39,815 nucleotides of DNA, taken from NCBI RefSeq assembly GCF_014202695.1, contig NZ_JACHHH010000016.1:1-39815 (forward strand). Reading direction: 5' to 3'. The position numbers and the translations under genes are program-made. The notes below the pieces were generated by a model. The model saw only the letters and a program-made list of their open reading frames with translations. It did no database searches and was not told where the DNA came from. The stretch comes from Oribacterium sinus. Lineage in GTDB: Bacteria > Bacillota > Clostridia > Lachnospirales > Lachnospiraceae. Below are positions 107 through 35,782 of this stretch, piece after piece (within the stretch, counting starts at the first letter, position 1; the number at the start of each line of letters is the position of its first letter).

Positions 107-299
107 AGAAATGCACCAAATTTTTCTCCTTATAAAGTATAGGGTTGAAATAGGGCACGCTTTCGCTAACTTCGCCTCGTAGCGGACACTAAGCGAAAAA
201 CAACAGTTCCTGTGTTTTTCGCAAGTGCCGACGGGCTCAGATTGCCCTTATTTCAACCCTATACTCTATGTCGGAGAAATGTATATCTGGTACATTTCT
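107..299. repeat. Structured intergenic element, copy A
   Basis: This is a large imperfect palindrome with a conserved core. The outer arms AGAAATGCACCA (107-118) and TGGTACATTTCT (288-299) pair with one G-T wobble. The inner arms AGTATAGGGTTGAAATA and TATTTCAACCCTATACT pair fully. The core runs from GGGCACGC to GATTGCCC and contains a hairpin AAGCGAAAAAC / GTTTTTCGC. It shares core and architecture with copies at 5655-5873 and 35568-35782. It lies just beyond the 3' end of ftsH and has no coding frame of note. Confidence 0.85.
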
Positions 300-325
300 A
301 TTTTATGTAATATGTGAAAACTGGC

Positions 326-2269
326 TTAGTTTTCCTCTCTGGCCACTACGGAGGGGTCCACTTCCTTTCGATTTAAAATCTCCAGGAACTCTTCTCCGGT
401 TATGGTTTCTCTTTCGTAGAGGAACTTGGTAATTTCGTGAAGCTTGGTAATATTGTCTTCCAAGAGCTTATAGGCTTTGTCGTGTTGTTTCTTTACCAAG
501 GCTACAACCATCTCATCAATCTTGGTTTGGGTTTCCGGAGAAACGGTTAGGCTGGAATCTCCCCCAAGATACTGGTTATGAAGCTGTTCCATAGCAACCA
601 TTCCCACCTCCGGATTCATACCGTAGCGGGTAATCATGGCTCTTGCAGACTTGGTTGCCCGCTCAATATCATTGGAAGCTCCTGTAGTACAGGTATGGAA
701 AATCAGTTCCTCCGCACAACGTCCGCCGGTGAGGGTGGCAATTTCATTTTCCAGCTCTTCCTTAGAATAGAGATAATGGTTTCCCTCTTCCTCCACCTGC
801 ATGGTATAACCCAAAGCACCTGAAGTTCTGGGGATAATAGTGATTTTATGAACCGGAGCAGAGTCCTTCTGTAAGGCAGCAACCAAGGCATGTCCCACCT
901 CATGGTATGCCACAATCAGCTTTTCCTTCTCCGTCATCACCTTATTTTTCTTCTGATAACCGGCAATAACCACCTCAATGGACTCTTCCAAGTCGGACTG
1001 TATAACTCTTTCTCTGCCGGCACGAACCGCCCTTAAAGCCGCCTCATTGATAATGTTGGCAAGTTCCGCACCGGATGCGCCGGGAGCCGCCTTGGCAATG
1101 GCCTCCAGGCTTACGTTATCGGACATTTTAATCTTGGCACTATGTACCTTTAAAATATCAATTCTTCCCTGATAATCCGGAAGCTCCACCGGCACTCTTC
1201 TATCAAATCTTCCCGGACGAAGAAGGGCAGGATCTAACTGATCCGGTTGGTTGGTGGCTGCCAGAAGAATAATGGCTTTATTGCTGTCAAAACCGTCCAT
1301 CTCCGTAAGAAGCTGATTTAAAGTCTGTTCTCTTTCATCATTTCCTCCCAATCCTCCGGCACCGCGCTTTTTACCGATGGCATCAATCTCATCAATAAAG
1401 ATAATACAGGGGGACTTTTTCTTTGCCTGATCAAAAAGATCACGAACCTTAGCAGCTCCCATACCAACATACATCTCTACAAATTCCGATCCGGAAATGG
1501 AAAAGAAGGGAACACCTGCTTCGCCGGCTACAGCCTTGGCCAGCATGGTTTTACCGGTTCCCGGAGGTCCCACAAGCAAAGCACCCTTGGGAATCTTTGC
1601 ACCGATTCTGGAATACTTGTCCGGATGATTTAAATAGTCTACCATCTCCGTGAGAAGCTCCTTTGCCTCATCTTCCCCGGCCACATCCTTAAAGCGAATG
1701 CTGTCATCCTTCTTCTCATACTCTCTGGCATTGGATCTTCCTAAACCGCCTAATCCAAAACCGCCCCCCATGCCGCCTATGGCGGATCCCATTCGCTTGG
1801 AAAGCCAGTTTCCTAAAGCCATAAAGAGCAGTAAGGGCACAACCCAGGAAAGAATGAAGTTTAAGAAGAAATTACTCTCTACAGGAATGGTTTCATTGTA
1901 CTCCACTCCCTGGGCATTTAACTCCTGCATAATCTGTGCTTCGTTAAATTCGTTGTTCACTCTTGTGGTACTGTAAGTTTGGGTCTTACCGTCTTTTTTC
2001 ACGTCATAGACAATGGTATTTTGATTAAATTCCACCTTACTGACGGTCTTATCCGTAATAGCCTTTTGAAATTCCGAATAAGCGGCAGGCTCAATTCTTG
2101 CCTGTTTCATTGCCGGAAATACAAAGGTATTCAGCAATAAAGTAATAATCATGGCAATAAAGACGTAGAACAGGAAGGATCTGGGTCTGTTTCCCCCTCC
2201 ATTGTCATCCTTTTTGTTGCCAGGAAAGAAATCGTCCCAGCCGGGCATAGAATTGTTCTTATTATCCAT
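326..2269 (-). CDS. ftsH: ATP-dependent zinc metalloprotease FtsH
   Basis: FtsH is a membrane-anchored AAA+ protease that degrades misfolded membrane proteins and short-lived regulators as a hexamer. The N-terminus has two membrane segments (about residues 31-52 and 134-156) flanking a small extracytoplasmic domain. The AAA module follows, with Walker A GPPGTGKT near 233, Walker [10 protein letters not shown] and an SRH ending in RPGRFDRR. The protease domain has the zinc motif HEVGH near 456. The length (647 aa) is usual for the family. I chose the second Met because AGGAG sits six bases before it and overlaps the upstream ATG at 2275. The gene is monocistronic, with the csoR terminator behind it and a structured repeat after it. 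Confidence 0.97.
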
Positions 2270-2371
2270 AAGCATCTCCTTTCTTTTGTTCTCTATACGG
2301 TATTCCTAAAATTTCTTTATATTGTTTCAACCATTGCCCTGTTAAAAGCAGAATGCAAGGTGAAACTTTAA

Positions 2372-2414
2372 AGTAGCTTCGTTTAAACGAGATATACTCT
2401 CTTCGGACGCTACT
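2372..2414. promoter_or_regulatory. Palindromic region upstream of ftsH
   Basis: AGTAGC (2372-2377) pairs with GCTACT (2409-2414). Between them lies a perfect 12-bp palindrome TCGTTTAAACGA (2379-2390). The position, between the csoR terminator and the ftsH start, suits an operator or leader structure of ftsH. No known heat-shock operator such as CIRCE is recognisable, so the role is a guess. Confidence 0.35.
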
Positions 2415-2423
2415 CCTGAAGAA

Positions 2424-2457
2424 TAAAAAAGAACTCTATGGAGTATAGAGTTCTTTT
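2424..2457 (-). terminator. Rho-independent terminator of csoR
   Basis: AAGAACTCTAT and ATAGAGTTCTT form an 11-bp perfect stem with a 5-nt loop. T runs occur on both sides, so it could work in both directions. It lies about 40 nt after the csoR stop codon. Confidence 0.85.
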
Positions 2458-2493
2458 GTGTTTAAAGTATGAAAAGCGTAAGAAAATTTTTCG

Positions 2494-2829
2494 TTACATG
2501 ATTTTCTTAATCAAGCCGCACAGCTCCTCTACCGCCTCGGTTTTACCCTCCTGAATATCGGAAACAACACAGCTTTCTATATGGCTTTGCAACAGCTCCT
2601 TGCTAAAGGCCTTTAGGGCAGAGGAAACAGAACTAACCTGGGTAAGGATATCCACACAATATCGCTCTTCTAAAAGCATATTGCGAATTCCTCGAATCTG
2701 TCCCTCCATACGGTTCAATCGAGAAATCAAATCTCTTCTTTCCCTCTCATCCCTGGCCTGTTTTTTCTTTCTTCCTCCACAGCACCCTCCCATTTCCATG
2801 GAAGCTTCTTGCTTTTGCTCCTCCTGCAT
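2494..2829 (-). CDS. csoR: Copper-sensing repressor CsoR
   Basis: CsoR is an all-helical tetrameric repressor that leaves DNA when it binds Cu(I). With a 111-aa product the ligand triad is Cys58, His83 and Cys87, which is the C-x24-H-x3-C pattern of copper-type members of the CsoR/RcnR family. An N-terminal CCGGRKKK stretch adds two cysteines and positive charge before the core. I prefer the ATG at 2829, with AAGGGAG nine bases upstream, over a GTG at 2865 that has no ribosome site. It lies 106 bp after copA in the same direction, and an operator of its type sits in the copA promoter, so repressor and pump are probably co-regulated. Confidence 0.9.
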   Translation of the reverse strand: MQEEQKQEASMEMGGCCGGRKKKQARDERERRDLISRLNRMEGQIRGIRNMLLEERYCVDILTQVSSVSSALKAFSKELLQSHIESCVVSDIQEGKTEAVEELCGLIKKIM

Positions 2830-2935
2830 AAATGCAATCTCCCTTATAGACATTCTTGTTTTCACATCGTTTTATAAAAATCAGAGCCTTACTTGATTAT
2901 GTACACTGATTACGAAAAATGATGATGAAAATTAA

Positions 2936-3145
2936 TTATGAAATGGATTTTACCGTATATTCCTGATCTTCTACAGCCTTCTTCAAGACTTCATCCGCCA
3001 CGGCTTCTTTCAAAGTAACAACGGCCTTACCGGTTTCATGACTAACCTCAGCCTTTTCCACCTGTGGCAAAGCCTCTAAAGCCTTCTTTACAGTTCCGGA
3101 ACAATGTCCGCACATCATACCTTCAATGTCCAAATGCTTCTCCAT
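2936..3145 (-). CDS. Possible internal start giving a free CopZ-like copper chaperone
   Basis: Codon 790 of copA is an in-frame ATG preceded by AAAAGGAGA with a 5-nt gap, an almost ideal ribosome site inside a coding region. Starting there gives exactly the last 69 residues: an isolated HMA domain with MMCGHC at Cys12 and Cys15. That is the typical size of the stand-alone chaperone CopZ. No separate copZ is seen beside copA and csoR. The ribosome site is seen directly; that it is used is inference. The AAAGGAGA could also arise by chance from the Lys-Glu codons of the linker. Confidence 0.5.
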
Positions 3146-5512
3146 AACAATCTCCTTTTCTTTTTGTGCATGACTCTCTTTCTTTGCAGAGTCAAAATCC
3201 AACAGTAACTTTTCTTTCTTTTCTTCCGCCAAGCCTTTCCTATGGTCTTTAGCGGAATTGTTTATGTTAAATAAGTTTAACCTGAGTGCATTTAAGCACA
3301 CGGAAAAGCTGGAAAGGCTCATCGCCGCCGCCCCCACCATAGGACTCATGGCAAAATTCCAATGGAAGATGGCGGAATAAAATCCTGCAGCAAGGGGGAT
3401 ACAAATCACATTATAGAAGAAGGCCCAGAACAGGTTCTCATGAATGTTTCGAATCGTAGCTCTGGAAAGTCGAATACTCTTCGGAATATCCCTTACTTTT
3501 GATTTCATCAGTACTAAATCCGCCGCATCAATAGCCACATCCGTACCTGCCCCTATGGCAATCCCCAGATCCGCTCTTGTCAGGGCAACCGCATCATTGA
3601 TACCGTCTCCTACCATGGCTACCTTACCATAGTTTTGGAGTTTTCGAATAACCTCTTCTTTTCCGTCAGGAAGCACTTCGGCAATGACCATATCCACTCC
3701 GGCTTCCTTACCGATGGCATTTGCTGTCCTTCTCTGATCGCCGGTAAGCATAACCGTGAATATTCCCTGCTTTTTCAGCTCTTCAATTCCCGTCTTTGCA
3801 TCCTCCTTTAAGGTATCCGCTACGGCGATACAGCCTAAAAGCTTCTCTCCTTTTGCAAAGAATAATGGGGTTTTTCCCTCTTCGGAAAAGCTGTTACAAT
3901 GCTCTTCAAAACTCTTTTCCAAAGAAAAATGCTCTTTCATATAGGATAAGGAAGCTGCCACAGCTTTTTCTCCCTCTATGGTTCCGGAAACACCATGTCC
4001 CACCATAGCCTGAAAATTATCCACGGGCAGTGTAGAAATCTTCTTCTCTTCCCCATAATTTAAAATAGCTTTTGCTAAAGGGTGTTCCGAATTCTTTTCC
4101 AGGGAAACTGCCAGAGTCAAAAGCTCTTCTTCGGAAACTCCCTGCATAGGAAGAAGATCCGTAAGCACCGGGCTTCCATTGGTAATGGTACCGGTCTTAT
4201 CCAGGGCAATAATTTCTACCTTTCCGGCTGCCTCCAAAGAAGCGGCAGTTTTAAATAAAAGCCCGTTTTTTGCGCCAACACCATTTCCCACCATAATGGC
4301 TACCGGTGTGGCCAGTCCCAAAGCACAGGGACAGCTGATAACCAGTACGGCTACAGCTCTGGAAAGAGCATCGGAAAATGTTCCTCCACTCAAAAGAATT
4401 ACAACAAAGGTCAGTATGGCAATACCAATAACCGCCGGTACAAAAACACCGGAGATTTGGTCTGCTATTCTGGCAATAGGAGCCTTGGTTGCTGCCGCAT
4501 CGGATACCATTTGAATGATTTGAGATAAGGTGGTATCCTTTCCTACTCTGCTGGCTTTAGCCTTGATAAAGCCGGACTGATTCAAAGTACCGGCAGAGAC
4601 CTTGTCCCCTTCTCCCTTATCTACAGGAAGGGATTCTCCCGTTAATGCCGACTCATCCACAGCAGTAACACCGCTTATAATAACACCGTCAACCGGTATC
4701 TGTTCTCCCGGATATACCGTGAAGAAGTCTCCCTCCTTCACTTCCTCTACGGAAACTTCTGTTTCCTGCTCCCCTGTAAGAAGGTGTGCCTTTTTAGGAC
4801 TTAAATTCATTAAGCTCTTTAAAGCATCTGTAGTCCTTCCCTTTGAAATTGCTTCCAAAAGCTTTCCCAAAGTAATCAGGGTAGGAATCATAGCGGCAGT
4901 TTCAAAGTAAAGATGATGCCCCAGCGTTTTTACCTGCTCCAGGTTTCCCTCTCCAAAGGCATAGAGAATACCGTAAAGGATTCCCAGGGAGTACAAAAAG
5001 GATGCGGCGGAGCCCAAGGCCACCAAAGTATCCATATTGGGGGCTAAAGCAAAGGCACTCTTAAAACCGGAAATGAAAAACTTTCTGTTGATGTAAAGAA
5101 CAATTAAACTAAGTAAGAGTTCCGTTAATGCCAATATTCCGGGATTGGAAAAGGCCTTTGGAAGCGGAGCATGGAATAACATTGGCCCCATGGAAAAATA
5201 CAAAAGAATTGCTAAGAAAAATAAGGATTGAAGCAGTCTCTTTTTTAGCTTTGGACTTTCGGTATCCTTTAGAGCATCCCCCTTATCTTTCTTCTCCGAT
5301 AGGGTATTGCTCTCTTCCGGATTCTCAAAACCGTAACCGGCAGCTTCTACTGCTTTTTGGATTTCATCTGCCCCTACTTCTCCTTCCACTCCCAGGGAGT
5401 TGGTTAAAAGAGAAACGGAGCAGGACTTTACGCCGGGGACTTTAGACACGGCTTTTTCTACTCTACTTTGACAGGAAGCACAGGTCATCCCTGTAACTCT
5501 ATATTGTTTCAT
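2936..5512 (-). CDS. copA: Copper-exporting P1B-type ATPase CopA with C-terminal HMA domain
   Basis: This pump exports Cu(I) across the membrane using ATP. An N-terminal HMA domain has MTCASC (Cys11, Cys14). The P1B membrane core has the CPC motif near 393-395. The phosphorylation motif DKTGT is near 437, SEHP marks the nucleotide site, and GDGIND is near 633. A charged linker after the last membrane helix leads to a second HMA domain with MMCGHC (Cys801, Cys804). A C-terminal HMA is less common than a tandem pair at the N-terminus. The start has AGGAGGAAGAT in front. The gene is driven by a promoter with a CsoR operator and is followed by csoR. Confidence 0.96.
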
Positions 5513-5538
5513 ATCTTCCTCCTTTCTTTTTCGACATC

Positions 5539-5567
5539 ATGATATACCCCCATAGGGTATATGTCAA
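5539..5567 (-). promoter_or_regulatory. copA promoter with CsoR-type operator
   Basis: On the minus strand, TTGACA (5562-5567) and TATCAT (5539-5544) are 17 bp apart. The spacer is filled by an inverted repeat at 5542-5562, ATATACCC with GGGTATAT across a short centre. This matches the usual form of CsoR operators (TACCC...GGGTA). Bound CsoR would cover both promoter elements, and copper would release it. Confidence 0.85.
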
Positions 5568-5581
5568 GGAGGGAAATATAA

Positions 5582-5985
5582 AAAATTGAAGAACTTGAAA
5601 TATGATACCCTTGAATACAATATGGGTCTGAAAATGGGGCACTCTCTCGCTTCAAAATTAAAGAACTTGATAAAATTATCTCCTTCAATGTAGCAATAGG
5701 TCTGGAATTCGGGCACGCTCTCGCTAACTTCGCCTCGCAGCGGATACTAAGCGAAAAACTTCAGTTCCTTCGTTTTTCGCAAGTACCGGCGGGCTTAGAT
5801 TGCCCTTATTCCAGACCTATTCTACATTGCATGTAAATTGGAATTCCTGATTTTCAAGTCATTCAATTTTTCAGCTTTCCAGAAGCACTGACGGGCTCAG
5901 ATTAGCTCAAATTTCAGACCTATATGGTATTGCATGAATTTCGAATTTCAGACCCATATTGTATTGCATAAGTTTCGAATTAGTA
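5582..5985. repeat. Broken structured element (copy D) interrupted by copy B
   Basis: A left part (5582-5653) reads through AATACAATATGGGTCTGAAA and GGGGCACTCTCTCGC, then stops. Its pairing partners reappear at 5886-5985: CGGGCTCAGATT, then two successive right arms, TTTCAGACCTATATGGTATT and TTTCAGACCCATATTGTATT. Complete copy B lies between the halves. The right arm is therefore duplicated and the core is missing. The arrangement suggests insertion of one element into another, or recombination between copies. Confidence 0.65.
5655..5873. repeat. Structured intergenic element, copy B
   Basis: Outer arms AAAATTAAAGAACTTGA and TCAAGTCATTCAATTTT pair imperfectly. Inner arms AATAGGTCTGGAAT and ATTCCAGACCTATT pair fully. 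The core runs from GGGCACGCTCTCGCTAAC to CGGGCTTAGATTGCCC and contains the AAGCGAAAAAC / GTTTTTCGC hairpin. It sits between the copA promoter and the 3' end of the phosphoesterase gene, inside copy D. Confidence 0.85.
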
Positions 5986-6015
5986 GTTTCGAAATTCTAA
6001 ATTTTCATTTCTTTT

Positions 6016-6573
6016 TTAGAACTCTATCTTTTTATATGCTTCTCCTTTTTCTACATCGTATAGGGTGAAGCTGTTGTCTTCCAAAATGCCGTAGCTGTGG
6101 GGGCTGTCTTCTTTAGGATGGCTGATGGAGCCGGGGTTTAGGTGATAAAAATACTTCTCTCCTCTGGTCTTCTTCATTGCCACGGGAACATGGGTATGCC
6201 CCTGGAGGAAGATATCTCCATCTTTTTGAAGCGGAAAACTTTCCGCGTTATAGACATGGCCATGGGAAAGGAACACTCTGTGCTTTCCCCACTCCAGGAT
6301 GGCATAGTCCGCCATAACGGGAAAGTCCAAAACCATCTGATCCACCTCTGCCTCACAGTTTCCCCGAACCGCAAGAATTTCTTCCTTCAGCGGATTTAAG
6401 AGAGCTATGACCTCTTTGGGGGCATAGTCTCTTGGCAGAGAATTTCTGGGGCCATGATACAAAACATCTCCCAAAAGCAGGATTCTCTCACAGCCGCTTT
6501 TTTGATAGGCCTCTATCCCAAGCTTTGCATAATACGCAGAGCCATGAATATCACTAAGTACAAAATACCGCAT
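6016..6573 (-). CDS. YfcE/MJ0936-type metallophosphoesterase
   Basis: This small calcineurin-like phosphoesterase acts on phosphodiester bonds through two metal ions; the physiological substrate is unknown. The metal-site motifs are in the usual order: DIH (Asp8, His10), GDVLYHGPRN (Asp36), GNCE (Asn72), SHGH (His104, His106) and GHTH (His126, His128). The length (185 aa) is typical. The start at 6573 is set by AAAGGATG upstream, and the ATG follows the argS stop codon by one base, so it is probably translationally coupled to argS. It resembles E. coli YfcE more than larger 3',5'-cyclic phosphodiesterases. Confidence 0.88.
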   Translation of the reverse strand: MRYFVLSDIHGSAYYAKLGIEAYQKSGCERILLLGDVLYHGPRNSLPRDYAPKEVIALLNPLKEEILAVRGNCEAEVDQMVLDFPVMADYAILEWGKHRVFLSHGHVYNAESFPLQKDGDIFLQGHTHVPVAMKKTRGEKYFYHLNPGSISHPKEDSPHSYGILEDNSFTLYDVEKGEAYKKIEF

Positions 6574-6574
6574 C

Positions 6575-8377: not shown

Positions 8378-8392
8378 AGCGATCCTTTCTAC

Positions 8393-8420
8393 AAAAAAAG
8401 GCTTCCTTTTAGGAAGCCTT
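8393..8420 (-). terminator. Terminator between efp and argS
   Basis: On the minus strand AAGGCTTCC pairs with GGAAGCCTT (9 bp, loop TAAAA) and is followed by a run of T. It lies 65 nt after the efp stop. The argS ribosome site begins within a few bases of the T run, so argS must be reached by readthrough or by a regulated terminator. Confidence 0.9.
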
Positions 8421-8484
8421 AGTCTCAATTTTCTTCTAGGAGAAGCATTCTTCCCAGTGCTTATTCTCTACACCAGTCCTGCAC

Positions 8485-9042: not shown

Positions 9043-9116
9043 AAATCCTCCTAAATCACTTTTCTTTGGGAAAAACTCCCCCTTCTCTTAGGCACTTGGC
9101 CATTAACTCGGGAACA

Positions 9117-25399: not shown

Positions 25400-25410
25400 T
25401 ATGTTTAGGA

Positions 25411-25747
25411 TGGACCTGATGGGAGTCGAACCCATGTCCGAAAACGATTTCCCTCTCCTTCTACTATCATAGTACGCTTCAAGATTCCCCACTAGGATAA
25501 GATGCGCACGTCTTGTCCCAGCCGGTATCCTCTAAATACGCCCGGTTGCGGGAGGAACCGCAACAGTCGTTTCTCACAAAAATGAGGTCAGGATCTTCCC
25601 GTGTGAGTGCAGGAAGGCTGGCCAGCAGCGCTTAGGCTGCTAATGCGTAACTATCGTTAGCGTTTAAATTTAAGTTTGAAGTTTAACGCGACTTCTTTCG
25701 GATAGCTTCTAAAGCTGCATCATCCCCGTCGAAACCGGTACAAGCCC
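25411..25747 (-). ncRNA. ssrA: Transfer-messenger RNA (tmRNA)
   Basis: tmRNA rescues stalled ribosomes and tags the unfinished protein for degradation. The 5' end GGGCTTGTACCGGTTTCGAC and the 3' end with GGGTTCGACTCCCATCAGG have the tRNA-like half structures, and the acceptor arms pair over seven bases (GGGCUUG with CAGGUCC). The tag frame at 25661-25632 reads ANDSYALAA and then TAA; the exact first residue is inferred. After the discriminator A the genome reads TCC, so the CCA end must be added enzymatically. It has its own promoter and terminator. Confidence 0.96.
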
Positions 25748-25759
25748 TAAAACAGTCTT

Positions 25760-25788: not shown

Positions 25789-25894
25789 GGATTAGCTTTA
25801 TTTCTTTATCAACTGACAAAATCTTTACTCTATTCTTGATTCTCCATCATTTTGAAAGAAAAGAATACTGTTTAATGAGCGATTTTAGCAGATA

Positions 25895-27214: not shown

Positions 27215-27260
27215 AAGATATAAAAATAATTTTTTTCAATTCTTTATCATCAAGTCTCCA

Positions 27261-27313
27261 TAAGTACATGGATTATCACCGACATTATCGATAATCCATG
27301 TGCTTATTTTTTT
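27261..27313 (+). terminator. Terminator of gldA
   Basis: TAAGTACATGGATTATC and GATAATCCATGTGCTTA form a 17-bp stem with one mismatch, followed by seven T. Confidence 0.9.
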
Positions 27314-27450
27314 CTAGCTATATCATATTCAACATGCTTTTTTTCACCATTTAAAATAGATTGTATAGCATCATTAATTGAGTTTGAAAATACATAAAAT
27401 GCTCCATTTGGATAAGAAAAATCCTTTTCTATCCCCTTGAATCTCCACAT
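27304..27450 (-). pseudogene. C-terminal remnant of an unidentified gene
   Basis: A minus-strand frame from an ATG at 27450 to a stop at 27304 encodes 48 residues with normal protein character: MWRFKGIEKDF, SYPNGAFYVFSNSINDAI, then NGEKKHVEYDIARKK. The frame is open further upstream to about 27480, where it reads less protein-like and meets a stop. The end overlaps the gldA terminator. There is no ribosome site before the ATG. It looks like the last part of a longer protein whose beginning was lost when the neighbouring LRR gene came to lie here. A genuine small protein is less likely. I cannot name the family. Confidence 0.45.
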
Positions 27451-27501
27451 TAAATATTGTAAATTGATAGAGAAAATTAAAAAATAAAATCAGGAGCTTT
27501 T

Positions 27502-29547
27502 ATGAAACTTACAAAAATCGTATGCCCTAATTGTAACGGCACATTGGATATTCCGGAGGGAATGAAGGAAGGCTTTGTGAGCTGTAAATTTTGTAATACC
27601 AAGATTTACCTGGAGCCTCACAAACCGGATATCACACAAAACATCCATATTGACAAAGTAAACTACAATACTCCCTATACAGCTCCCCCAAAAAAGGAAT
27701 CCCCAAAATATCTATTAGGGATTCTTCTTGCGGTACTATTTTTACCAAGCATCATTATATTTCTTAGCTTAAGTCGAATTTTCTATCAAAGCTCCGGCTC
27801 CTCCACCTCCATTGCAGCAAGTCCAAGCTACTGCACTACGCCGGAGGACAGCACTGTAATCCGCTTCGTGGAACAGGTCTTCGCTAAGCCCGTCTCGGAA
27901 CTGACTCCTGAGGACTATGGTTCCATTCAATATTTGGATATCCGGAAAAAATCGGGAAAAAGTGACAATGCCGCTGAACAATGGGTATTTTCGTATGCTG
28001 ACAGCGTAGATGAAGCAGGAGAAGCTTTAGAAAAAAAGACCATTTTCCTCCCCTCTACAGACTCCATCGACGAATCCAGCCTTCAGCCCTTTACGGGTCT
28101 AGTGAGCCTAAATTTAGATGGAAATATAAGCTTCAGCTATGATAATACGAGCTATAGCCAAGATTTGAAAAATCTAGGCAATTTAAAGTATTATTCCGAT
28201 CAAAATATATATGCAGCGGATTTACAAAGGATTCTTCCCCATCCGGAGGAGATTTTAGGACTTTCAGGAGTTAGGTTTTCCAATGTTTTAAGCTTATATT
28301 TTTCTCAAGAAAACTCTGAGATTAATGTGGAAAAAATCATGAGTGAATTCACTTCCTTGGAATCCCTTGACGTTCGTGTAGAAGAAACATATGAAGGCGG
28401 TCTTCTTTTCCTAAGAAACCTTCCCGCTATAAAAAGCCTCACCCTTAATATTATCGGAGATGACGCTGTTGTTTTCGACCTCTCCCCCCTTTCTTCCCTC
28501 AGTAGCTGTACCGACCTTTCCATTACAGGACCTTATCAAGAGCCTCTGGACAATGTCAGCGTTTTATCCGGTATGCCTCAGGTTGAAAACCTAAAGCTTA
28601 AGGATATAACAAGCCTAAAGGATTTAAGCTTTGTAAAAAACATGCCAAATCTCAAGTCCTTAAGCCTTGAAAACCTGCCCATTCTTTCCATAGACGGGCT
28701 GGCTAATCAGCTTTCCTTAAACAGCCTATATCTGGATTGTAACGATTTGGAAAACGTAAATGCTTTACCTACTCTGACTTCCTTACAAAAACTGTATATC
28801 GACTATCATACCTTTGACGTTCCGGATTTACACGGCTTAACAGCCCTGGAAGAAGCGAATCTCCTGGTTTGGGACTTGGATAAGATTGCCCACATGCCCT
28901 CTTTAAAGAAACTGACGATTCGAAACTATATGTCCGATTACAGTGCCGACATTTTGCGGGGAATGAATTCTCTGACCGACTTAAGCTTTGTGGGATCCGG
29001 AATCACCGGACTGGTAGATACGGACTTGGGAAATGTGTTGCGGGAGCTTCCTGCTTTGGAACGACTGACCATGCTGGGAACTCCTATGGACCGCTATAAG
29101 GATTACACGAAAGCCCTTTCCAATATCGGGGTTAGGGAAATGTACTTTTATCCTGAGGATGACAGTAATGTAGCGGATGGTCCGGTTCTCAGCCTTTCCT
29201 TAAGCCGAATGGAAGACGACAACAGCACGGAAATACTAGCCCTGGAAAAGGCGGAGATTCACAATGTAGATGATGACAGCAAGAATTTTGATCAAAATGC
29301 AAAAGCTTATCTATCTCATTTTAAGGCAGTAAAAAAGCTAATAATTCCCGGCAATAAATTGCAAAGCCTGGATTGTCTGGAAGGATTAAATACTATTGAA
29401 GAGATGGATATCTCCGACAATTACATTTCCGATATCAGTATGCTAAGAAATCTCCCAAATTTAAAGAAGGTAAAGCTGTCCGGAAATTCCATTGCCAACA
29501 TGGAGATCCTACCGGATACGGTAGAGGTGGTTAATTCCTTTGATTAG
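27502..29547 (+). CDS. Zinc-ribbon, single-span, leucine-rich-repeat protein
   Basis: The 681-aa protein starts with a zinc ribbon (Cys8, Cys11, Cys28, Cys31), then one membrane segment (about 69-94), and a long part rich in leucine repeats (about 180-680), such as LKSLSLENLPILSIDGL and IEEMDISDNYISDISMLRNL. The ribbon should be inside the cell and the repeats outside. LRR domains bind proteins; the partner is unknown. AGGAG with a 5-nt gap precedes the ATG. It is followed by a small membrane protein in the same direction. The function is not known; the joining of a ribbon and LRR across a membrane is notable. Confidence 0.75.
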   Translation: MKLTKIVCPNCNGTLDIPEGMKEGFVSCKFCNTKIYLEPHKPDITQNIHIDKVNYNTPYTAPPKKESPKYLLGILLAVLFLPSIIIFLSLSRIFYQSSGSSTSIAASPSYCTTPEDSTVIRFVEQVFAKPVSELTPEDYGSIQYLDIRKKSGKSDNAAEQWVFSYADSVDEAGEALEKKTIFLPSTDSIDESSLQPFTGLVSLNLDGNISFSYDNTSYSQDLKNLGNLKYYSDQNIYAADLQRILPHPEEILGLSGVRFSNVLSLYFSQENSEINVEKIMSEFTSLESLDVRVEETYEGGLLFLRNLPAIKSLTLNIIGDDAVVFDLSPLSSLSSCTDLSITGPYQEPLDNVSVLSGMPQVENLKLKDITSLKDLSFVKNMPNLKSLSLENLPILSIDGLANQLSLNSLYLDCNDLENVNALPTLTSLQKLYIDYHTFDVPDLHGLTALEEANLLVWDLDKIAHMPSLKKLTIRNYMSDYSADILRGMNSLTDLSFVGSGITGLVDTDLGNVLRELPALERLTMLGTPMDRYKDYTKALSNIGVREMYFYPEDDSNVADGPVLSLSLSRMEDDNSTEILALEKAEIHNVDDDSKNFDQNAKAYLSHFKAVKKLIIPGNKLQSLDCLEGLNTIEEMDISDNYISDISMLRNLPNLKKVKLSGNSIANMEILPDTVEVVNSFD

Positions 29548-29667
29548 GAAAATTTGTGTACTGAAAGTTTAGGAATGAAAACGTATCATTCAGGGCTATA
29601 CGATTTCAAAAAAAGGCAAAATTCTGTTTGATATCCATAGAAAATTCAAGGCAGAAAGAGGAGGCAA

Positions 29668-30090
29668 ATGAAATTTTTTTACTATTTTATAGAAGGAAGT
29701 AGAAGTACATATCAATCCCCATTTTTAGTCCAACTTCTTCTCCTTTTCATAGGCCTTATTTGGCTGTTCCGACGTCTAATCATCTTACGAACAGGGGGCA
29801 GTTTTTTTGCCCCCTACCATATCGTGGGAGATACTCTTTATATTCATGCAGGATTAATCTGTATCGGAAAACGGGCCATTCCCTTTTCCGAAATGCGTGC
29901 CGTCCATGTGGATCCTATCCATAGCCCTCATGGAGGAAGATATTATGCTATTCAAATTCTGAGAAAGTCCGGACTGCATAAATTCTTCACCATTACAAAT
30001 AACGAACAGGGCAAGGTGTATCTGGAAGAATTGAAGGAAGCTTTACGAAAGCATGGCGTAGGGGTGAGATATCTTTCCAAAGAGTATTGA
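29668..30090 (+). CDS. Small membrane protein with PH-like domain
   Basis: The 140-aa product has a hydrophobic segment (about 19-40), then a beta-rich part (about 50-110; HIVGDTLYIHAGLICIGKRAIPFSEMRAVHVD) and a short final helix. The pattern is that of bacterial PH domains fused to a membrane anchor. GAGGAGGCAA precedes the start. It lies 120 bp after the LRR gene in the same direction, so the two may act together. No catalytic motif is seen. Confidence 0.55.
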   Translation: MKFFYYFIEGSRSTYQSPFLVQLLLLFIGLIWLFRRLIILRTGGSFFAPYHIVGDTLYIHAGLICIGKRAIPFSEMRAVHVDPIHSPHGGRYYAIQILRKSGLHKFFTITNNEQGKVYLEELKEALRKHGVGVRYLSKEY

Positions 30091-30118
30091 GGGAAGGACT
30101 GTGTTCGTCACTAATATT

Positions 30119-30141
30119 CGCTCTGATGCAGTAGGAGGCTG
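30119..30141 (+). repeat. Lone left arm of the structured element
   Basis: CGCTCTGATGCAGTAGGAGG matches the left arm of copy C (CGCTCTGATGTAGTATAGG at 35597-35615) with only a few differences, and GCTG continues in both. No core or right arm follows. A decayed copy is the simplest reading. Confidence 0.5.
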
Positions 30142-30146
30142 CCGTT

Positions 30147-30345
30147 ACTTACTCAGGCTTTGTCTATATTTCGTAACGCTCTTCCCAGTCCATATTGTAA
30201 ATGCTCTGAGGAAGGAGTTTTGCTCTGCATAGCCCAGCAAGTCAGGGTTGAAACCGAGAAAGCAAAATGACACCCTATGAAGCAATATCATAGAGTGCCA
30301 ATATTTCATCAATTTACGCCATTTGTCATTTTAAGCAAATATCAA
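30147..30345. other. Gene-free stretch with several hairpins
   Basis: CGTTAC and GTAACG pair across about 20 nt near 30144-30178. Further on, CACCCTATGA and TCATAGAGTG pair with one mismatch (near 30269-30296), enclosed by AAAATGACA and TGTCATTTT. The stretch lies between two convergent genes, so it could hold terminators for both. The remainder of 30091-30406 shows nothing I can support. Confidence 0.4.
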
Positions 30346-30406
30346 AAGAAACTCTTCTCTTTCGAATTCTTTCACCAATCGGAACTACAACTGCTATAAA
30401 TTTTCC

Positions 30407-30907
30407 TCAACTATTCTTTTTTTGATTTTGCAAAACTTTATATGGTGCTAAATCTTCAGAAACCAATCTCCTTTCAAACATAGGAATACCATACTCTCGT
30501 TTCATAGCATCAACAGTCACCACCCATTGTTTTCCATATTTACAGGCATCAACACCATTAACCAGCTTTCCATAAGTAATAGCCTTACGAAGGGTACTCT
30601 CATTTAGTCCCCATAGTCTGGTAGCATCAGTAAATGCTATAATATTATCAAATGGAGTTTGCACAGATTTTCCATTTTCAAAAAGTTCATCACAAGATAA
30701 GTCTAATTCATCATTCCAAATGATTCCATACCCTCCCACGTCAACTTCCACAGCAGAGAATAACTTAGGGTTTTCTTGTAGCGCCTTAAAAGCTGCCCAT
30801 TTTGAAAATAAGGGTTTTACGTCATATATTTTCGTAATCCCTTCTACAAATTGAATACTTAAGAAAAAATTTGGAAGTGCACTGATCGCTTTAACTTTAT
30901 GCATCAT
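30407..30907 (-). CDS. DUF2442 protein with C-terminal helix-turn-helix
   Basis: The first about 85 residues match DUF2442 (KVKAISALPNFFLSIQFVEG, KIYDVKPLF, ELDLSCDELFENG). The second half (about 95-155) looks like a helix-turn-helix (TDATRLWGLNESTLRKAITYGKL). DUF2442 genes often lie beside DUF4160 genes, and the pair has been proposed as toxin-antitoxin; the DNA-binding part suits an antitoxin that represses its own operon. AAGGAG precedes the start. It lies 12 bp after the DUF4160 gene. Confidence 0.75.
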   Translation of the reverse strand: MMHKVKAISALPNFFLSIQFVEGITKIYDVKPLFSKWAAFKALQENPKLFSAVEVDVGGYGIIWNDELDLSCDELFENGKSVQTPFDNIIAFTDATRLWGLNESTLRKAITYGKLVNGVDACKYGKQWVVTVDAMKREYGIPMFERRLVSEDLAPYKVLQNQKKNS

Positions 30908-30919
30908 TTAAACAACTCC

Positions 30920-31174
30920 TTACTCTAATGGAGCAAGAGATTTAAACTCCTGCGTATCCCACATTTGCAAAAGATCTATTTTATGTAGCTCAATCCATTC
31001 CTTAACCATAGTTAATGCCTTAGGGGGCAAATACCCCTCCAAAATCTCGCCAGTCTGGATTGTAATAGCTGCCATTTCTTCACCATACAATGCGTGAATA
31101 TGAGGCGGATTATGTTCTGCCTGTTGAAAATACATTCTAATGATAATTCCATAAAATCTGGATAATACCGGCAT
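30920..31174 (-). CDS. DUF4160 protein
   Basis: The 84-aa product matches DUF4160: MPVLSRFYGIIIRMYF, then NPPHIHALYGEEMAAI, and a C-terminal helix with KEWIELHKIDLLQMW. The conserved HIHA pair may be functional. AAAGGAGCTATAGC precedes the start. As first gene of a two-gene unit with the DUF2442-HTH protein it would be the possible toxin. No activity is established. Confidence 0.75.
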   Translation of the reverse strand: MPVLSRFYGIIIRMYFQQAEHNPPHIHALYGEEMAAITIQTGEILEGYLPPKALTMVKEWIELHKIDLLQMWDTQEFKSLAPLE

Positions 31175-31344
31175 GCTATAGCTCCTTTATATTCATAATA
31201 TCCACTCTGAACAAAGTGTATTTTATACTGCTTATTGTATCACGTTTCCGTGATTTTTTGTAAATTAATTTCACAAAAGAAGACAGGGAATTCTCCCTGC
31301 CTTTTTATCTCTTAATTTCCTCTAGAAAGCTTTTCTGACAACTA

Positions 31345-32634
31345 TTATAGCTTTTCCTTACTAAGCTCCTTCTCGAACTCCCACACATACTCCACAAAAT
31401 ACGCCACTCCAAGCTTTAAAACATTTTCATCTATAGCAAAATAGGGGCTATGCTGGGGATAACGAAGCTCTTCCTCCGGGAAGCCGGCACCAAGGAAAAG
31501 AAGGCATTTCGGCGCCTTAAACTTGGCAAAGTCCTCTCCCCCCATCTGAGGCTCCCAATCCAGCACATTTTCTTCTCCAAAAACCTTCGTCGCCGCTCTT
31601 CTTCCCGTATCCACACAGGCTGTATCGTTAATCATGGGAGGCGGCCCAAGGTGGTAGTCAACGCTTATTTCCGTTCTTGTAGCCTCTGCCACACCCTTAG
31701 ACACACGATTTAGAATCTCCGGATACTGCTTACGAATCTCCGGGTTAAAGGTTCTGGCCGTTCCCTTTAAATGAGCCTCTCCGGGAATAACGTTGTAGGC
31801 GTTACCGGAGCTAAAGGAGGTGATACTGATCACTGCCGGCTCTAGGGGGCTGATTTCTCTGGATACGATGCGTTGCAAAGACATTACCAGCTCAGAACCG
31901 GCAACAATGGGATCAACAGTCTGATGGGGCAGAGCGCCATGCCCTCCCTTTCCATTTACGAAAATGTCAAAGGTGTCCGTAGCTGTCATCACCGCACCGT
32001 AACGAATAGAGGCTGTACCTGCAGGCAACTTGCTCCAAATGTGCAAGGCAATCATTCGATCACAGGATAATGCCTCAGTATCCTCCTTCATATAACCGGC
32101 CCCACTATCCTCAATGCACTCCTCTGCCGGTTGAAATAAAAGCTTTACAGTAACCGTAAGCTCCTCTTCCATTTGCTTTAAAAGCTTTGCCGTTCCCAGC
32201 AGGATGGTAATGTGAGTGTCATGACCGCAGGCATGCATCAAGCCCTCCGTCTTGGATTTCCACGGACAATCCGAAAGCTCCGTCACCGGAAGGGCATCAA
32301 TATCCGCCCGAATCCCGATGATCTTTCCTGTAGACTTCTTTCCCTGAATGCTGGCAATAACACCGGTTTTGCAGGACTTTTTATAGGGGATCCCCAGCTC
32401 ATCCATATATTCTATGATTTTTTCCTGAGTATGAAATTCCTGCCAGGACAGCTCCGGATGCTCATGAAAATACCGGCGAAGCTTCACCAGCTCTTCTTGA
32501 AAATCTTCCGGCCTAGCTGCTTGAATATCTTTTTGACTATCTGCTTGAATTTCTGCTTGAATTTCTGCATGTCTTTCTGCGTGGATATTTGCTTGGATAT
32601 CCGCTTCGTTATTTACTTTCTTATGATTATCCAT
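31345..32634 (-). CDS. M20-family amidohydrolase with repetitive N-terminus
   Basis: This metal-dependent amidohydrolase (AmhX/HipO/AbgB type) likely cleaves N-acyl amino acids or aminoacyl conjugates. Metal-site motifs are HACGHDTH, QPAEE and GGEDF, with the dimerisation domain between them (GKGGHGALPHQTVDPI). The core is of normal length. The first about 45 residues are extra and made of AEIQ/ADIQ/NIHA units encoded by 12-nt repeats; they have no counterpart in the usual family. GGAGG with an 8-nt gap precedes the ATG, so the repeats appear to be translated. The substrate is unknown. Confidence 0.88.
   Translation of the reverse strand: MDNHKKVNNEADIQANIHAERHAEIQAEIQADSQKDIQAARPEDFQEELVKLRRYFHEHPELSWQEFHTQEKIIEYMDELGIPYKKSCKTGVIASIQGKKSTGKIIGIRADIDALPVTELSDCPWKSKTEGLMHACGHDTHITILLGTAKLLKQMEEELTVTVKLLFQPAEECIEDSGAGYMKEDTEALSCDRMIALHIWSKLPAGTASIRYGAVMTATDTFDIFVNGKGGHGALPHQTVDPIVAGSELVMSLQRIVSREISPLEPAVISITSFSSGNAYNVIPGEAHLKGTARTFNPEIRKQYPEILNRVSKGVAEATRTEISVDYHLGPPPMINDTACVDTGRRAATKVFGEENVLDWEPQMGGEDFAKFKAPKCLLFLGAGFPEEELRYPQHSPYFAIDENVLKLGVAYFVEYVWEFEKELSKEKL
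32510..32615. repeat. Degenerate 12-nt coding repeats
   Basis: Units of the form TGCTTGAATTTC / TGCTTGGATATC recur in this stretch, each encoding a tetrapeptide such as AEIQ or ANIH (minus strand). Unit number could change without frameshift. Confidence 0.7.
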
Positions 32635-32673
32635 TGTTTTTGCCTCCGTCCTTAATCTTAGCTTGAATACGTT

Positions 32674-32800
32674 TTCCTACTATTCTTTATTACTTTCTCT
32701 CCTACCGTTCTCTCCCACTATTCTATCTTACTATTCTTTATTGCTATTCTTTATTGCTATACTTTCCTACTGACCTTTCTGACTATACTATCCTACTATT
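32674..32800. repeat. Degenerate tandem repeats of CTATTCTTTATT type
   Basis: CTACTATTCTTTATT, TTACTATTCTTTATTG, CTATTCTTTATTG and shorter forms such as CCACTATTCTATC and TACTATCCTACTATT follow one another. The region is almost free of G on the plus strand. It lies upstream of the amidohydrolase start, in its possible promoter region. The rest of the gap to 33062 is AT-rich. Confidence 0.6.
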
Positions 32801-33004
32801 TGTCTTGCCATTTTCCCATTCTATTCGCTTTGAAAAGCCATGACAATACGATTTTTCCCATAAATCCGGGCAAAAACTCATATCATTCAATATAATTATT
32901 TATTTTTTAGCAATTATACACAAAATTTAAGAACTTTTCTCTCTACGATTTTCTGTCCTTTAGTCTCATTTCTCCATAAAATAGCATTGTAAAATAACGA
33001 TATT

Positions 33005-33014
33005 ATGATATCAT
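33005..33014. promoter_or_regulatory. Palindrome before the surface protein gene
   Basis: ATGATATCAT is a perfect 10-bp palindrome about 50 bp before the start codon, near TTGTAA and TATCAT elements (16 bp apart) that may be the promoter. Weak evidence only. Confidence 0.3.
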
Positions 33015-33062
33015 TAATTTATTTAAACAATAAATTTTGCTTATCTTAGGAGGTATTTACAA

Positions 33063-35519
33063 ATGAGGACAATTCCCCAATTCATTATGAAGAGGGTCCA
33101 GGGACGGGTTTTAGCTGTTGTGACATTTTTACTTGCACTTACCCTGTCTCTTGGATTTATGCCATCCAACCTGCAGAGGGTATATGCCCAGGAAGAGAAT
33201 CTCTATCTGGATGGTAAAAACGGTAACGACGAGAACGATGGAACTACACAGGAAACTGCCGTAAAATCCTTCGAAAGAGCAAAAGAACTGGCAACGGAAA
33301 ATCCTTATATCGAGGTTATTTACGTTGTAGACACTGTTCCTGTTACCGGAGAAGTAAGTCTGGACAATACCAATGCCATTCTTATGAGAAACCCGGGATT
33401 TTCAGGATATCTTTTAAGCATTCCGGCCGGAAAAGAAGCTACACTTCGAAATATTACCATAGACGGTGGCGGAGAAAATGACGGAAAAACCAGAGAATCT
33501 CTGATTAAGGTTTCCGGCAATCTAAATATTGAAGAGGATGCCATTTTAGAAAACAATTTTGTAACTGTTACTGAAGGAATCGACGCTAACGGAGGTGCTA
33601 TCTACGCGATCTCCGATACCCAAAAGGTTGTCATTAATATGACCGGCGGAATTATCCGGAACAATAGCGCTTTCTTTGGCGGCGGAGTATTTTTATTAGA
33701 TAATACCACTTTCAATATGTCCGGCGGAGAAATTAGAGAAAACAAGGCTATTTCCCCTAATACCTTTAACGGCAATCCCTTTGTAAGTGGTGGCGGTATC
33801 TGCGCATACCGCAGTTCTACCATTAACCTAAGCGGCGATGCTTTGATTGCTGATAACTACTGTCATGAGTATGGAGGCGGTATTGCACTGGGCTCTATCA
33901 TTGACGTTACCGAAGGGAATACCTTAAATATGACCGGCGGAACCATCAGCGGAAACAAAGCAGGAGCAAGCGGTGGCGGTATCTTTATCCAGTGCGGACT
34001 GTCTACCGGAAATTCCGTTGCCAACATTTCCGAAGGAAAGATTATTAACAATGCCATGACCGGTGAAGGCTATGGAAACAAGCATTTTGGCGGCGGCGGT
34101 ATCTACGTAAACGGTAAGGCGGAAATCCTTCGCGGTAAGCAGGGTGTTTTAAACCTGACCAATGCATTGATTACCGATAATACCGCAGGGACTGAAGGTG
34201 GCGGATATGCTTCCTGCCCCACTTCCAATACAGGAATCAATGTAAAGAACGGTGTTGCTATCTTCGGAAACCATTCTGAAAAGGCACAGGATATTTATAT
34301 CGAGGCGGGTTACCGTTACGGTTATGTAAGTAGCGGTTCTCCCAAGTACGCTATCTCCTCCTTTATGTTGGGTGGAACTCCCTATAACTGGAAAAATGAT
34401 GAAAATGAAGAGCTTCCCATCAACAAGTTAGAGGGTGAGTTAAGCTCTGCTACAGGCGAAATCTTAGGATTACACTCTGATGTGACCGAGGACGCTGAGG
34501 CGGAAGGCTTGGCCAAGGTCATCATTTCCGGAAATACCTCTGCTACCCGTGGCGGCGGAATCGGCTCCAACGGAACCGTAAACACCGGAGAAAAGAAGGT
34601 TATTTCCATCAAGGTCAATAAGACCTGGAAATACGACAATCCGGAAACCCGTCCTACCAGCATTATCGTAGAACTTTATCGCGTAAATAAAGAAGACCCG
34701 GCAAATCCCATTTACATCGGCCAAGAGACTATGACCGAAGCCGATGATTGGAGCATCAGCTTTAAGAACCTTCCAAAGATTGATGAAAATGACGAACTTT
34801 ACCAGTACACCATCAAGGAAAAAGGCGCTGAGGGGTATTCTGTGAAAATGAGCGGAAACCAGACCAGCGGATTTAAGCTTGTAAACGTTCCCGGAATCAT
34901 TCTTACCGTAGAAAAGAAGTGGAACGGCGAAAGTGCAAATCAGGTAGAGATTAAGCTTTTGGCAGATGGCGCAACCAAGGAGAAGGTAACTCTTACCCAA
35001 GCCGATCAGTGGAAGCACAGCTTTGTAAATCTTCCCAAGTTTGATGCCAATGACGGACACGAGATCGTTTACACCGTAGAAGAGACGGCATTAAGCGGAT
35101 ATACATCAGAAATCAGCGGAGATGCGGCTAACGGATATATTGTTACCAATACAAAGACCATTACTCCTCCAAGCCCCACTCCTGAAACACCGCCAACACC
35201 ATCGCCAAGACCGAACAGACCTTCTACCCCTACACCATCCACTCCTACACCTTCTAATCCCACACCATCCACACCTCCTACCCCAACGGTAGCCGGTGAG
35301 TCCAGACCTACACCTACTCCGGACTCCAGTGAAGTGTCGGAAAATGAAGTGAATCCTGAGCTTGTTCCTCAGGTTTTAGGAGAATCCAGACCGGTAGCAG
35401 ACAATAAGCGTGATACCCCAACCGGAGACAGCTCTAAGCTTCTCCTCTGGGCAGGCTTCTTCGGTCTATCCGTATTAGGACTTGCTTACTATGGATTAAA
35501 GAGAACAGTGAAGAGATAA
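33063..35519 (+). CDS. Cell-surface adhesin-like protein: beta-helix, Cna-B domains, wall anchor
   Basis: The 818-aa protein has a signal peptide (to about residue 43, VYA-QE), a right-handed beta-helix region (about 90-500) with repeats like NMTGGTISGNKAGASGGGIF, and two Cna-B-like domains (about 515-610 and 615-690; KVNKTWKYD and VEKKWNGE). A Pro/Thr/Ser-rich stretch (about 700-760) comes next. The end has the form of a sortase signal: DTPTGD, a hydrophobic segment and a basic tail (GLKRTVKR). The motif lacks one residue compared with LPxTG/NPxTG. AGGAGG precedes the ATG. It is monocistronic with a strong terminator. Binding partner unknown. Confidence 0.85.
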   Translation: MRTIPQFIMKRVQGRVLAVVTFLLALTLSLGFMPSNLQRVYAQEENLYLDGKNGNDENDGTTQETAVKSFERAKELATENPYIEVIYVVDTVPVTGEVSLDNTNAILMRNPGFSGYLLSIPAGKEATLRNITIDGGGENDGKTRESLIKVSGNLNIEEDAILENNFVTVTEGIDANGGAIYAISDTQKVVINMTGGIIRNNSAFFGGGVFLLDNTTFNMSGGEIRENKAISPNTFNGNPFVSGGGICAYRSSTINLSGDALIADNYCHEYGGGIALGSIIDVTEGNTLNMTGGTISGNKAGASGGGIFIQCGLSTGNSVANISEGKIINNAMTGEGYGNKHFGGGGIYVNGKAEILRGKQGVLNLTNALITDNTAGTEGGGYASCPTSNTGINVKNGVAIFGNHSEKAQDIYIEAGYRYGYVSSGSPKYAISSFMLGGTPYNWKNDENEELPINKLEGELSSATGEILGLHSDVTEDAEAEGLAKVIISGNTSATRGGGIGSNGTVNTGEKKVISIKVNKTWKYDNPETRPTSIIVELYRVNKEDPANPIYIGQETMTEADDWSISFKNLPKIDENDELYQYTIKEKGAEGYSVKMSGNQTSGFKLVNVPGIILTVEKKWNGESANQVEIKLLADGATKEKVTLTQADQWKHSFVNLPKFDANDGHEIVYTVEETALSGYTSEISGDAANGYIVTNTKTITPPSPTPETPPTPSPRPNRPSTPTPSTPTPSNPTPSTPPTPTVAGESRPTPTPDSSEVSENEVNPELVPQVLGESRPVADNKRDTPTGDSSKLLLWAGFFGLSVLGLAYYGLKRTVKR

Positions 35520-35530
35520 GATTTCAAAAA

Positions 35531-35563
35531 AAGATGTCGTAGATTTTCTACGGCATCTTTTTT
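35531..35563 (+). terminator. Terminator of the surface protein gene
   Basis: AAGATGTCGTAGA and TCTACGGCATCTT form a 13-bp stem with one wobble pair and a 3-nt loop, followed by T6. A run of A on the other side could let it serve both strands. Confidence 0.9.
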
Positions 35564-35567
35564 ATAT

Positions 35568-35782
35568 AAAAAGAGCTGCAAGCTTTATATAGATACGCTC
35601 TGATGTAGTATAGGCTGTAATCGGGGCACGCTCCCGCTAACCCCGCCAACGCATCGGTACTAAGCTTCAAGCATCGCTTTGCTCACTTTCAGCAAGTACC
35701 GGCGGGCTCAGATTGCCCCTCTTACAGCCTATACTACATCAATCGCTTTCAACTATATAATTTAATTTATACAGCTCTTTTT
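35568..35782. repeat. Structured intergenic element, copy C
   Basis: Outer arms AAAAAGAGCTG (35568-35578) and CAGCTCTTTTT (35772-35782) pair perfectly. Inner arms TGATGTAGTATAGGCTGTAA and TTACAGCCTATACTACATCA are complementary over 20 bp. The core runs from GGGGCACGCTCCCGCTAAC to ACCGGCGGGCTCAGATTGCCC. The apical part differs from copies A and B (AAGCTTCAAGC in place of AAGCGAAAAAC), but CGGTACT still pairs with AGTACCG. It lies between two convergent genes. Confidence 0.85.

Follow-up and report, generated by a model that had tools for sequence, protein, structure and literature searches.

The stretch of DNA analysed here (the window) comprises 39,815 nucleotides of Oribacterium sinus (contig NZ_JACHHH010000016.1, positions 1 to 39,815, from the 25-contig draft assembly GCF_014202695.1). 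It holds three intergenic hairpin elements, copy A (107..299, including its outer arms), copy B (5655..5873), and copy C (35568..35782), found exactly where a first-pass annotation of the sequence had placed them. All three belong to a single large, real, and apparently unnamed family of hairpin elements. Their shared left core motif, GGGCACGCTNNCGCTAAC, occurs three times in the window with zero mismatches, where 0.18 occurrences would be expected allowing up to three mismatches, and all three copies fold far better than their dinucleotide shuffles (z of -12.1 for copy A, -8.9 for copy B, and -10.2 for copy C). The annotation had held that none encodes a protein; all three lie outside every open reading frame (ORF) of at least 80 amino acids reported by a crude ORF caller. 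Copy B stands between codirectional genes and copy C between convergent genes; copy A, at the contig edge, was left unclassed.

The minus strand of the window, opposite to the one on which the copies had first been described, is probably the conserved one, and the features that follow are read on it. In copy A, which our covariance model matches at 123-277, the core (closing stem P1, side hairpin, P2, and P3 with a variable tip) occupies 153..247 and the side hairpin 159..166, reading GC-GAAA-GC with a GNRA tetraloop. Core and side hairpin lie at 5711..5805 and 5717..5724 (GC-GAGA-GC) in copy B, and at 35624..35718 and 35630..35637 (GC-GGGA-GC) in copy C, whose base stem, AAAAAGAGCTG / CAGCTCTTTTT, resembles a bidirectional terminator by eye. 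Copy B is nested in the tip of a broken older copy (~5611-5970, minus strand) with remnants to its left (~5617-5652) and right (~5875-5970); this nesting, like the probable minus strand, goes beyond the first-pass annotation.

Below, G000 denotes the window's genome, G009 that of Oribacterium parvum ACB1 from the same genus, and L numbers denote fetched loci. Relative to O. parvum, copies B (window 5206-6089) and C (35185-35904) are at gene-order breaks, their left and right flanks mapping to separate places in G009, and the counterpart site of copy A carries a different hairpin; clean empty sites for the three copies, sought by site orthology, were not obtained. No Rfam family reached threshold on any copy scanned, in line with the earlier statement that no named family with this core was known. 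The sole match in the window at the gathering threshold was the transfer-messenger RNA (tmRNA) gene at 25408-25747 (minus strand, 130 bits); at a permissive threshold, Rfam release 15 gave six matches for copy A and two for copy C, all far below gathering, and a scan of 20 loci from 18 other genomes gave three matches, none on the element.

Structure, covariation, and strand

Read on the opposite strand, the core consists of the closing stem P1, a stem P2 that continues into P3, of which there are at least three tip types, and a tiny side hairpin of two base pairs with a GNRA loop just before P1 closes; the whole element is a long stem capped by this conserved core. The best defined subset is ~205 nt long, or ~310 nt with an optional module of ~108 nt and three hairpins that lies between P2 and P3 in both species (L005, L086, L087, L211, L212, L214-L221, L223, L228, and L242). 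The stems of this module vary between copies yet still pair, as judged by eye.

Across 93 copies, 95.6% of cells are paired and 27 of 33 pairs have changed on both sides. Double-change cells number 399, against a mean of 93.9 (standard deviation 7.1) in shuffles, none of 500 being as high, and against 61-86 in controls with slid partners; the covariation expected of a structured RNA family is thus present relative to both kinds of control. A cross-species set gives 98 double-change cells versus 23.1 in shuffles. Such cells count sequences, not independent events; as a parsimony count on a FastTree tree, double changes number 172 in the arms and 41 in the core. Covariation thus holds with more sequences, as does the pairing of the arms within copies: all 16 arm pairs have changed on both sides, and arms unrelated between copies can still pair within each copy. 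Inside the core, the change from CACT/AGTG to TACT/AGTA that had been singled out does covary (columns 75-117 hold 87 UA, 5 CG, and 1 UG pairs). A second helix proposed there, CCCGC/GCGGG, is rejected: it shows no covariation, the GGG strand never varies, and 53 of the 93 copies have C.A at one of the five positions. In the derived consensus its bases form the loop and stem of the small side hairpin. Of the original reading as a folded RNA or cruciform under selection, the pairing stands, with covariation far above controls, and the strand is probably the opposite one.

The opposite strand is preferred because of loop, folding, and arm-mismatch tests, after which the first-described strand was dropped as the functional one. 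On the opposite strand, the side-hairpin loop is GNRA in all 93 Oribacterium copies (44 GGGA, 45 GAGA, 4 GAAA) and in 26 of 28 copies from three other genera, in which GCAA, GTAA, and GGAA also occur and the two non-GNRA loops are GCAT and ACAA; a looser tally finds GNRA in 65 of 68 copies on this strand and in 0 of 68 on the other. Folding, too, is more favourable on the opposite strand, in 91 of 93 copies (mean -75.0 versus -66.7 kcal/mol) and in 20 of the 28 copies from other genera (p 0.005). Arm mismatches read on the first-described strand are A.C in 55 cases and G.U in 24 (85 distinct arms), or 47 versus 23 when counted as tree events (p 0.006), and since A.C on one strand is G.U on the other, they favour the opposite strand. 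DNA can likewise form stable G.T wobbles and stable short GNNA loops, so the strand tests alone do not separate an RNA from a folded single DNA strand.

Spread, gene context, nesting, and dispersal

Further copies, whose absence from relatives would have spoken against the first-pass reading, are abundant, with more than 100 additional matches in the genome and dozens in one relative. A 17-base right-core pattern, allowing up to two mismatches, has 115 matches in G000 versus 1 for the reversed pattern, and an exact composite pattern matched, among named genomes, only O. parvum ACB1 (records nearest the window were possibly left out). The full covariance model, built from 93 copies and applied to at most 150 candidates per genome, matches at least 137 sites in G000 and at least 65 in G009. 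Weaker matches, a few each, occur in G001, G005, and G007, which makes five carriers among 17 genus genomes (lower bounds). These weaker matches have unrelated arms and another closing stem within the same layout, and have in common a TxCTAA...AAGxxC stem and the side hairpin; the diverged copies in other genus genomes retain long, nearly perfect arms.

To describe the wider distribution, we used a core-only model of 41 sequences, nine of them divergent (eight from G001, G005, and G007 and one from O. parvum). 'Lachnospiraceae' in our counts means the window's family as grouped in the searched genome set. At a cut-off of E <= 0.001 and with at most 13 candidates scored per genome, the model matched 119 of 299 family genomes and 118 of 298 genera; among the matched genomes, only G000 and G009 had contributed sequences to it. 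Seventeen of the 119 genomes had at least 13 matches and many had one or two, and three of the matched genomes, rescored with 150 candidates each, gave 11, 15, and 6. Of 391 genomes drawn from across the class, 10 matched, all of them Lachnospiraceae, which indicates that beyond the family the model does not match at random. A dominant family of the human and animal gut carries the element in ~40% of its sampled genomes, under no name in Rfam, with one or two to more than 100 copies per carrier genome, and the carriers include gut and mouth bacteria. The core structure and its GNRA loop are conserved across genera despite unrelated arms. A search of phage and plasmid records with copy B at blastn sensitivity gave no match. 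An early pattern match outside the genus (G028, L031) was read as chance, as were 35 matches from a pattern scan of IMG/VR, of which 33 had no left half and the remaining two (L152, L176) only a loose one with four mismatches.

The position of the elements among genes is strongly skewed. Neighbour classes were taken from the crude ORF caller (at least 80 amino acids). The 81 clusters in G000 comprise 36 convergent, 37 codirectional, and 3 divergent ones, with four copies at locus edges and one inside an 85-amino-acid ORF excluded from the test, while other gaps of at least 60 nt at the same loci comprise 8, 63, and 22, respectively (Fisher test: convergent enrichment p 1.4e-8, divergent depletion p 3e-4). 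The 38 copies in G009 are distributed likewise (15 convergent, 19 codirectional, 1 divergent, 3 at edges). This is the distribution expected of an element that ends transcription or avoids promoters, and the base of many copies (an A-run, a GC-rich stem, and a T-run) is like that of a two-way Rho-independent terminator. Of the readings that the first-pass annotation had offered as possible, mobility and a terminator-like position have both gained support, and its interpretation is supported overall. Not all copies sit behind genes, since at L246 (G001) one lies just upstream of a reading frame, presumably argB from its first residues.

Elements also nest inside one another. We read 86 arrays (81 in G000 and 5 in G009), 33 of them with more than two half-units and the largest with up to eight. 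The order of left and right halves is L...LR...R in 32 of these 33, the lone LRLR being two neighbouring copies, and no opposite-strand unit was recognised inside any of the 86 arrays. Twenty-two arrays have at least two left and two right halves. In at least nine of them (L005, L042, L043, one of L046, L061, L067, L078, L081, and window copy B), the left arms of layers one and two each pair best with the right arm of the same layer. The 5' strand of P3 is absent from all 30 true outer left halves (a 31st match, at L216, is spurious and lies 345 nt away), the 3' strand is kept in 30 of 42 outer right halves, and innermost copies keep the two strands in 97 and 102 of 102 cases. Units therefore appear to enter at a single place, the tip of P3, whose former tip is lost, and this entry can be read directly in window copy B. 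One junction is shared among arrays L042, L043, L056, L067, and L077, which means that some units were copied with both layers already in place.

Dispersal of a similar subset is evident in O. parvum. This type-I subset has 27 copies (23 in G009 and 4 in G000), running from AAGGGGCTGTAAAAAATCAAAATAAT to ATTATTTTGATTTTTTACAGCCCCTT over ~205 nt with inverted ends AAGGGGCTGT ... ACAGCCCCTT. Pairwise identity among the G009 copies has a median of 93% (range 83-99.5%), and their identity to the G000 copies is 86%. Most copies share both ends, four of the 27 having no recognisable left end (L190, L191, L216, L228), and beyond the ends the flanks are unrelated, with the exception of L218/L221 on the left and L220/L221 on the right. 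The six bases after the right end include at least four T at 21 of the 27 copies, and the six before the left end at least four A at 15. At one site the element is present in G000 (L082) and absent from G009 (L097), with flanks alignable on both sides and a gap too diverged for its junction to be read; a further candidate pair, L058/L207, was rejected as one site, the copies being on opposite sides of a gene. At the L001 site, the O. parvum hairpin has no core but a base stem like that of the element, in keeping with a tip that was gained or lost.

Type-I end stems also occur without a core, as plain hairpins at at least nine of 20 fetched end-match stretches (for example L231, L232, and L237), and internal deletions are seen at L225, L230, and L241. 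Within these 20 stretches, an end mostly has its partner at the distance expected of a hairpin or an element. No pair of ends was seen to flank a gene, and no insertion sequence with the type-I ends was seen, in what was not a full search and with the genes present not identified; L234 and L241 have no partner end, and the ORFs listed for them were not identified.

Probable mobility, rival explanations, and known elements

We think it probable that these are non-autonomous mobile elements whose core works as RNA, and that they lie between genes as tolerated or useful two-way terminators. Some enzyme would recognise the folded core and move the elements; the core would act as RNA, with a folded single DNA strand as the main alternative; new units would enter the P3 tip of older units; and elements would persist where they are found by acting as harmless or useful terminators.

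Several observations weigh against this interpretation. No mobilising enzyme was found among the Y1 transposase and reverse transcriptase families in the carriers checked. Y1 transposase (PF01797) occurs in 9 of 17 genus genomes, including the carriers G000, G009, and G001, and is absent from carriers G005 and G007; reverse transcriptase (RVT_1, PF00078) is present in four of eight carriers and absent from G001, G005, G106, and G140. Because each is missing from some carriers, neither is a general resident partner, and both were rejected in that role; old copies, for their part, need no partner enzyme today. No target-site duplication was visible by eye in the flanks of the 27 type-I copies. 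The flanks that L221 shares with L218 (left) and L220 (right) mean that these three are not independent insertions, and recombination between copies is likely in their case. In the other 13 of the 22 arrays, arm pairing is mixed, tied, or unclear, the causes being layers too alike, ties, or right halves that outnumber left ones, and the shared junction makes independent nesting events fewer than arrays. The orientation of elements relative to neighbouring genes is unbiased (19 same, 18 opposite), so that the RNA strand is not simply part of a neighbour's transcript. In the covariation itself, further pair types across species number 29 versus 27.3 in shuffles (121 of 500 shuffles as high), the core excess of A.C over G.U is not significant (9 versus 6), and an A.C excess could be a mutation bias. 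Arm pairs mostly change on both sides with no visible intermediates (the 172 double events); DNA-level correction between the arms of a palindrome would give the same double changes and may add to arm pairing.

A more far-reaching form of the mobile-element interpretation, which we put forward tentatively, is that of a bacterial class resembling short interspersed nuclear elements, in which the RNA with its branched GNRA core would itself be the substrate recognised for mobilisation, targeting hairpin tips including its own. Equally tentative is the corollary that such a class builds nested rods of RNA modules between genes in more than 100 Lachnospiraceae genera. If it is true that the core RNA drives its own spread, this would be a mobile bacterial RNA element without a known enzyme.

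The strongest rival is a 3'-end module kept by the host, with the elements serving as long terminators or stabilisers of 3' untranslated regions and the core binding a host RNA-processing protein; dispersal would then lie in the past, and host selection would keep the pairing today. The convergent enrichment and divergent depletion speak for it, as do the T-rich 3' and A-rich 5' flanks of type-I copies and the long, nearly perfect arms retained by diverged copies, and if it were correct the element would be a widespread gene-end device relevant to transcript studies of Lachnospiraceae. We nevertheless judge it rather unlikely: the nested arrays and the dispersed type-I set look selfish, and the bare hairpins at many end-stem sites imply that a hairpin of this kind can do without the core.

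Next comes a DNA-level element, in which the recognised form would be one DNA strand folded on itself, as it is when IS200/IS605-type elements or integron attC sites recombine, and the GC-GNRA-GC hairpin a very stable DNA mini-hairpin. Short GC-G..A-GC hairpins are indeed very stable in DNA, and both the absence of an orientation bias relative to genes and the double changes without intermediates agree with recognition at the DNA level. A purine as third loop base, found in all 93 Oribacterium copies and all 28 from other genera, fits an RNA GNRA loop better than a DNA GNNA loop, and the two carriers without Y1 transposase argue in the same direction, so that we regard this explanation as unlikely. 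Ordinary miniature inverted-repeat transposable elements (MITEs) of a DDE insertion sequence, with arm identity kept by template-switch correction and a core made of insertion-sequence remains, would account for the inverted ends AAGGGGCTGT and ACAGCCCCTT, the end-only hairpins, and the internal deletions, and are improbable given the spacing of paired ends with no gene seen between them (genes unassigned), the absence of visible target duplications, and a core and GNRA loop conserved across genera with unrelated arms, as insertion-sequence remains would not be.

The element is new as a family and in kind a variant of small dispersed terminator-like repeats, from which its covarying branched core, nested growth, and family-wide spread set it apart. 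The closest described elements, likened here by published descriptions and not by sequence or structure, are the SPRITE and BOX repeats of Streptococcus pneumoniae. According to the parts of the source consulted, these are small and dispersed, have folded transcripts, and insert into one another; SPRITE is enriched near gene 3' ends and has AAAA...TTTT ends, a terminator-like stem, and no demonstrable target duplication, and BOX grows modularly, varying by internal boxB copies (PMC3049150). As far as these descriptions go, our family shares with SPRITE the terminator-like stem, AAAA/TTTT ends, 3'-end enrichment, and lack of a visible target duplication, with BOX the modular growth, and with both the insertion into one another. 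Unlike in BOX, with its internal boxB, left and right halves nest here around one tip, and whereas SPRITE and BOX are described from a few streptococci, the present family spans 118 genera of one bacterial family with large covariation.

Repetitive extragenic palindromic (REP) sequences, in the sections of the source consulted, are extragenic palindromes of 20-40 bp, tagged at one end with GTAG or CGTC and tied to REP-associated tyrosine transposases (RAYTs); they occur in high copy, are proposed to move in trans, and may stop or stabilise transcripts (PMC3733652). The likeness lies in extragenic, high-copy palindromes that are proposed to be moved in trans and may stop or stabilise transcripts (PMC3733652). 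Our element differs in its length of ~205 nt or more, its branched core, and the lack of a GTAG/CGTC tag at type-I ends; it is thus no tagged palindrome of 20-40 bp, nor is a RAYT a regular companion in its genomes, G005 and G007 being carriers without a Y1 transposase. Terminal inverted repeats, the mark of MITEs, are found in most of the 27 type-I copies; RVT_1, expected in carriers of a retroelement moved by reverse transcriptase, is not a constant of these genomes. Intrinsic terminators have in common with the family the A-run, GC-rich stem, T-run, and convergent-gene enrichment, but lack the stem of tens of base pairs and the conserved branched core at its tip. In the parts consulted, a review of prokaryotic MITEs from 2024 (PMC10969869) does not describe a family of this kind, and no description of the present one was found in the portions consulted of the openly licensed PMC literature. 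A survey of human-microbiome RNAs reports, in the part consulted, 250 palindromic candidates, 230 of them predicted terminators, and the hairpin family may be among its unnamed entries (PMC8040213). With a probable strand, a structure, and the named laboratory genome of O. parvum ACB1 to hand, the mobile-element and host-module readings can both be tested directly.

Neighbouring repeats and other conserved stretches

In several places, the elements have conspicuous neighbours. In both species, several elements or bare hairpins of the end stems immediately adjoin a second palindromic repeat, which is shorter (L001 ~1320-1375, L219, L231, and L235); in L001 this repeat reads AACGAGATATCGCA...TGCGATATCTCGTT, followed by AAGAATAAAA. 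At L033 of O. parvum, a diverged core (~1330-1450) with the closing stem GTAAAG/CTTTAC, near the G005/G007 type, adjoins the right remnant of an ordinary copy. In G007, a Clostridiales-1 RNA (RF01699, 72.3 bits; L248 1668-1826, minus strand) lies ~15 nt from a family member and upstream of it on the putative RNA strand; it is likewise a structured RNA of Clostridiales, and its model scores below threshold on the element itself.

Two further stretches of the window are conserved between the species. Window 1-95, which is non-coding, is 94% identical to G009:C1:370757-370851, unusually conserved for intergenic DNA, and its counterpart in G009 is not syntenic with the adjoining gene. Beside the tmRNA gene, 30-43 nt of window 25797-25839 recur at 92-100% identity in five places in O. 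parvum (G009:C1:177201, 228262, 686150, 986714, and 2093745, the last near the O. parvum tmRNA gene), and this recurring stretch reads like a shared promoter.

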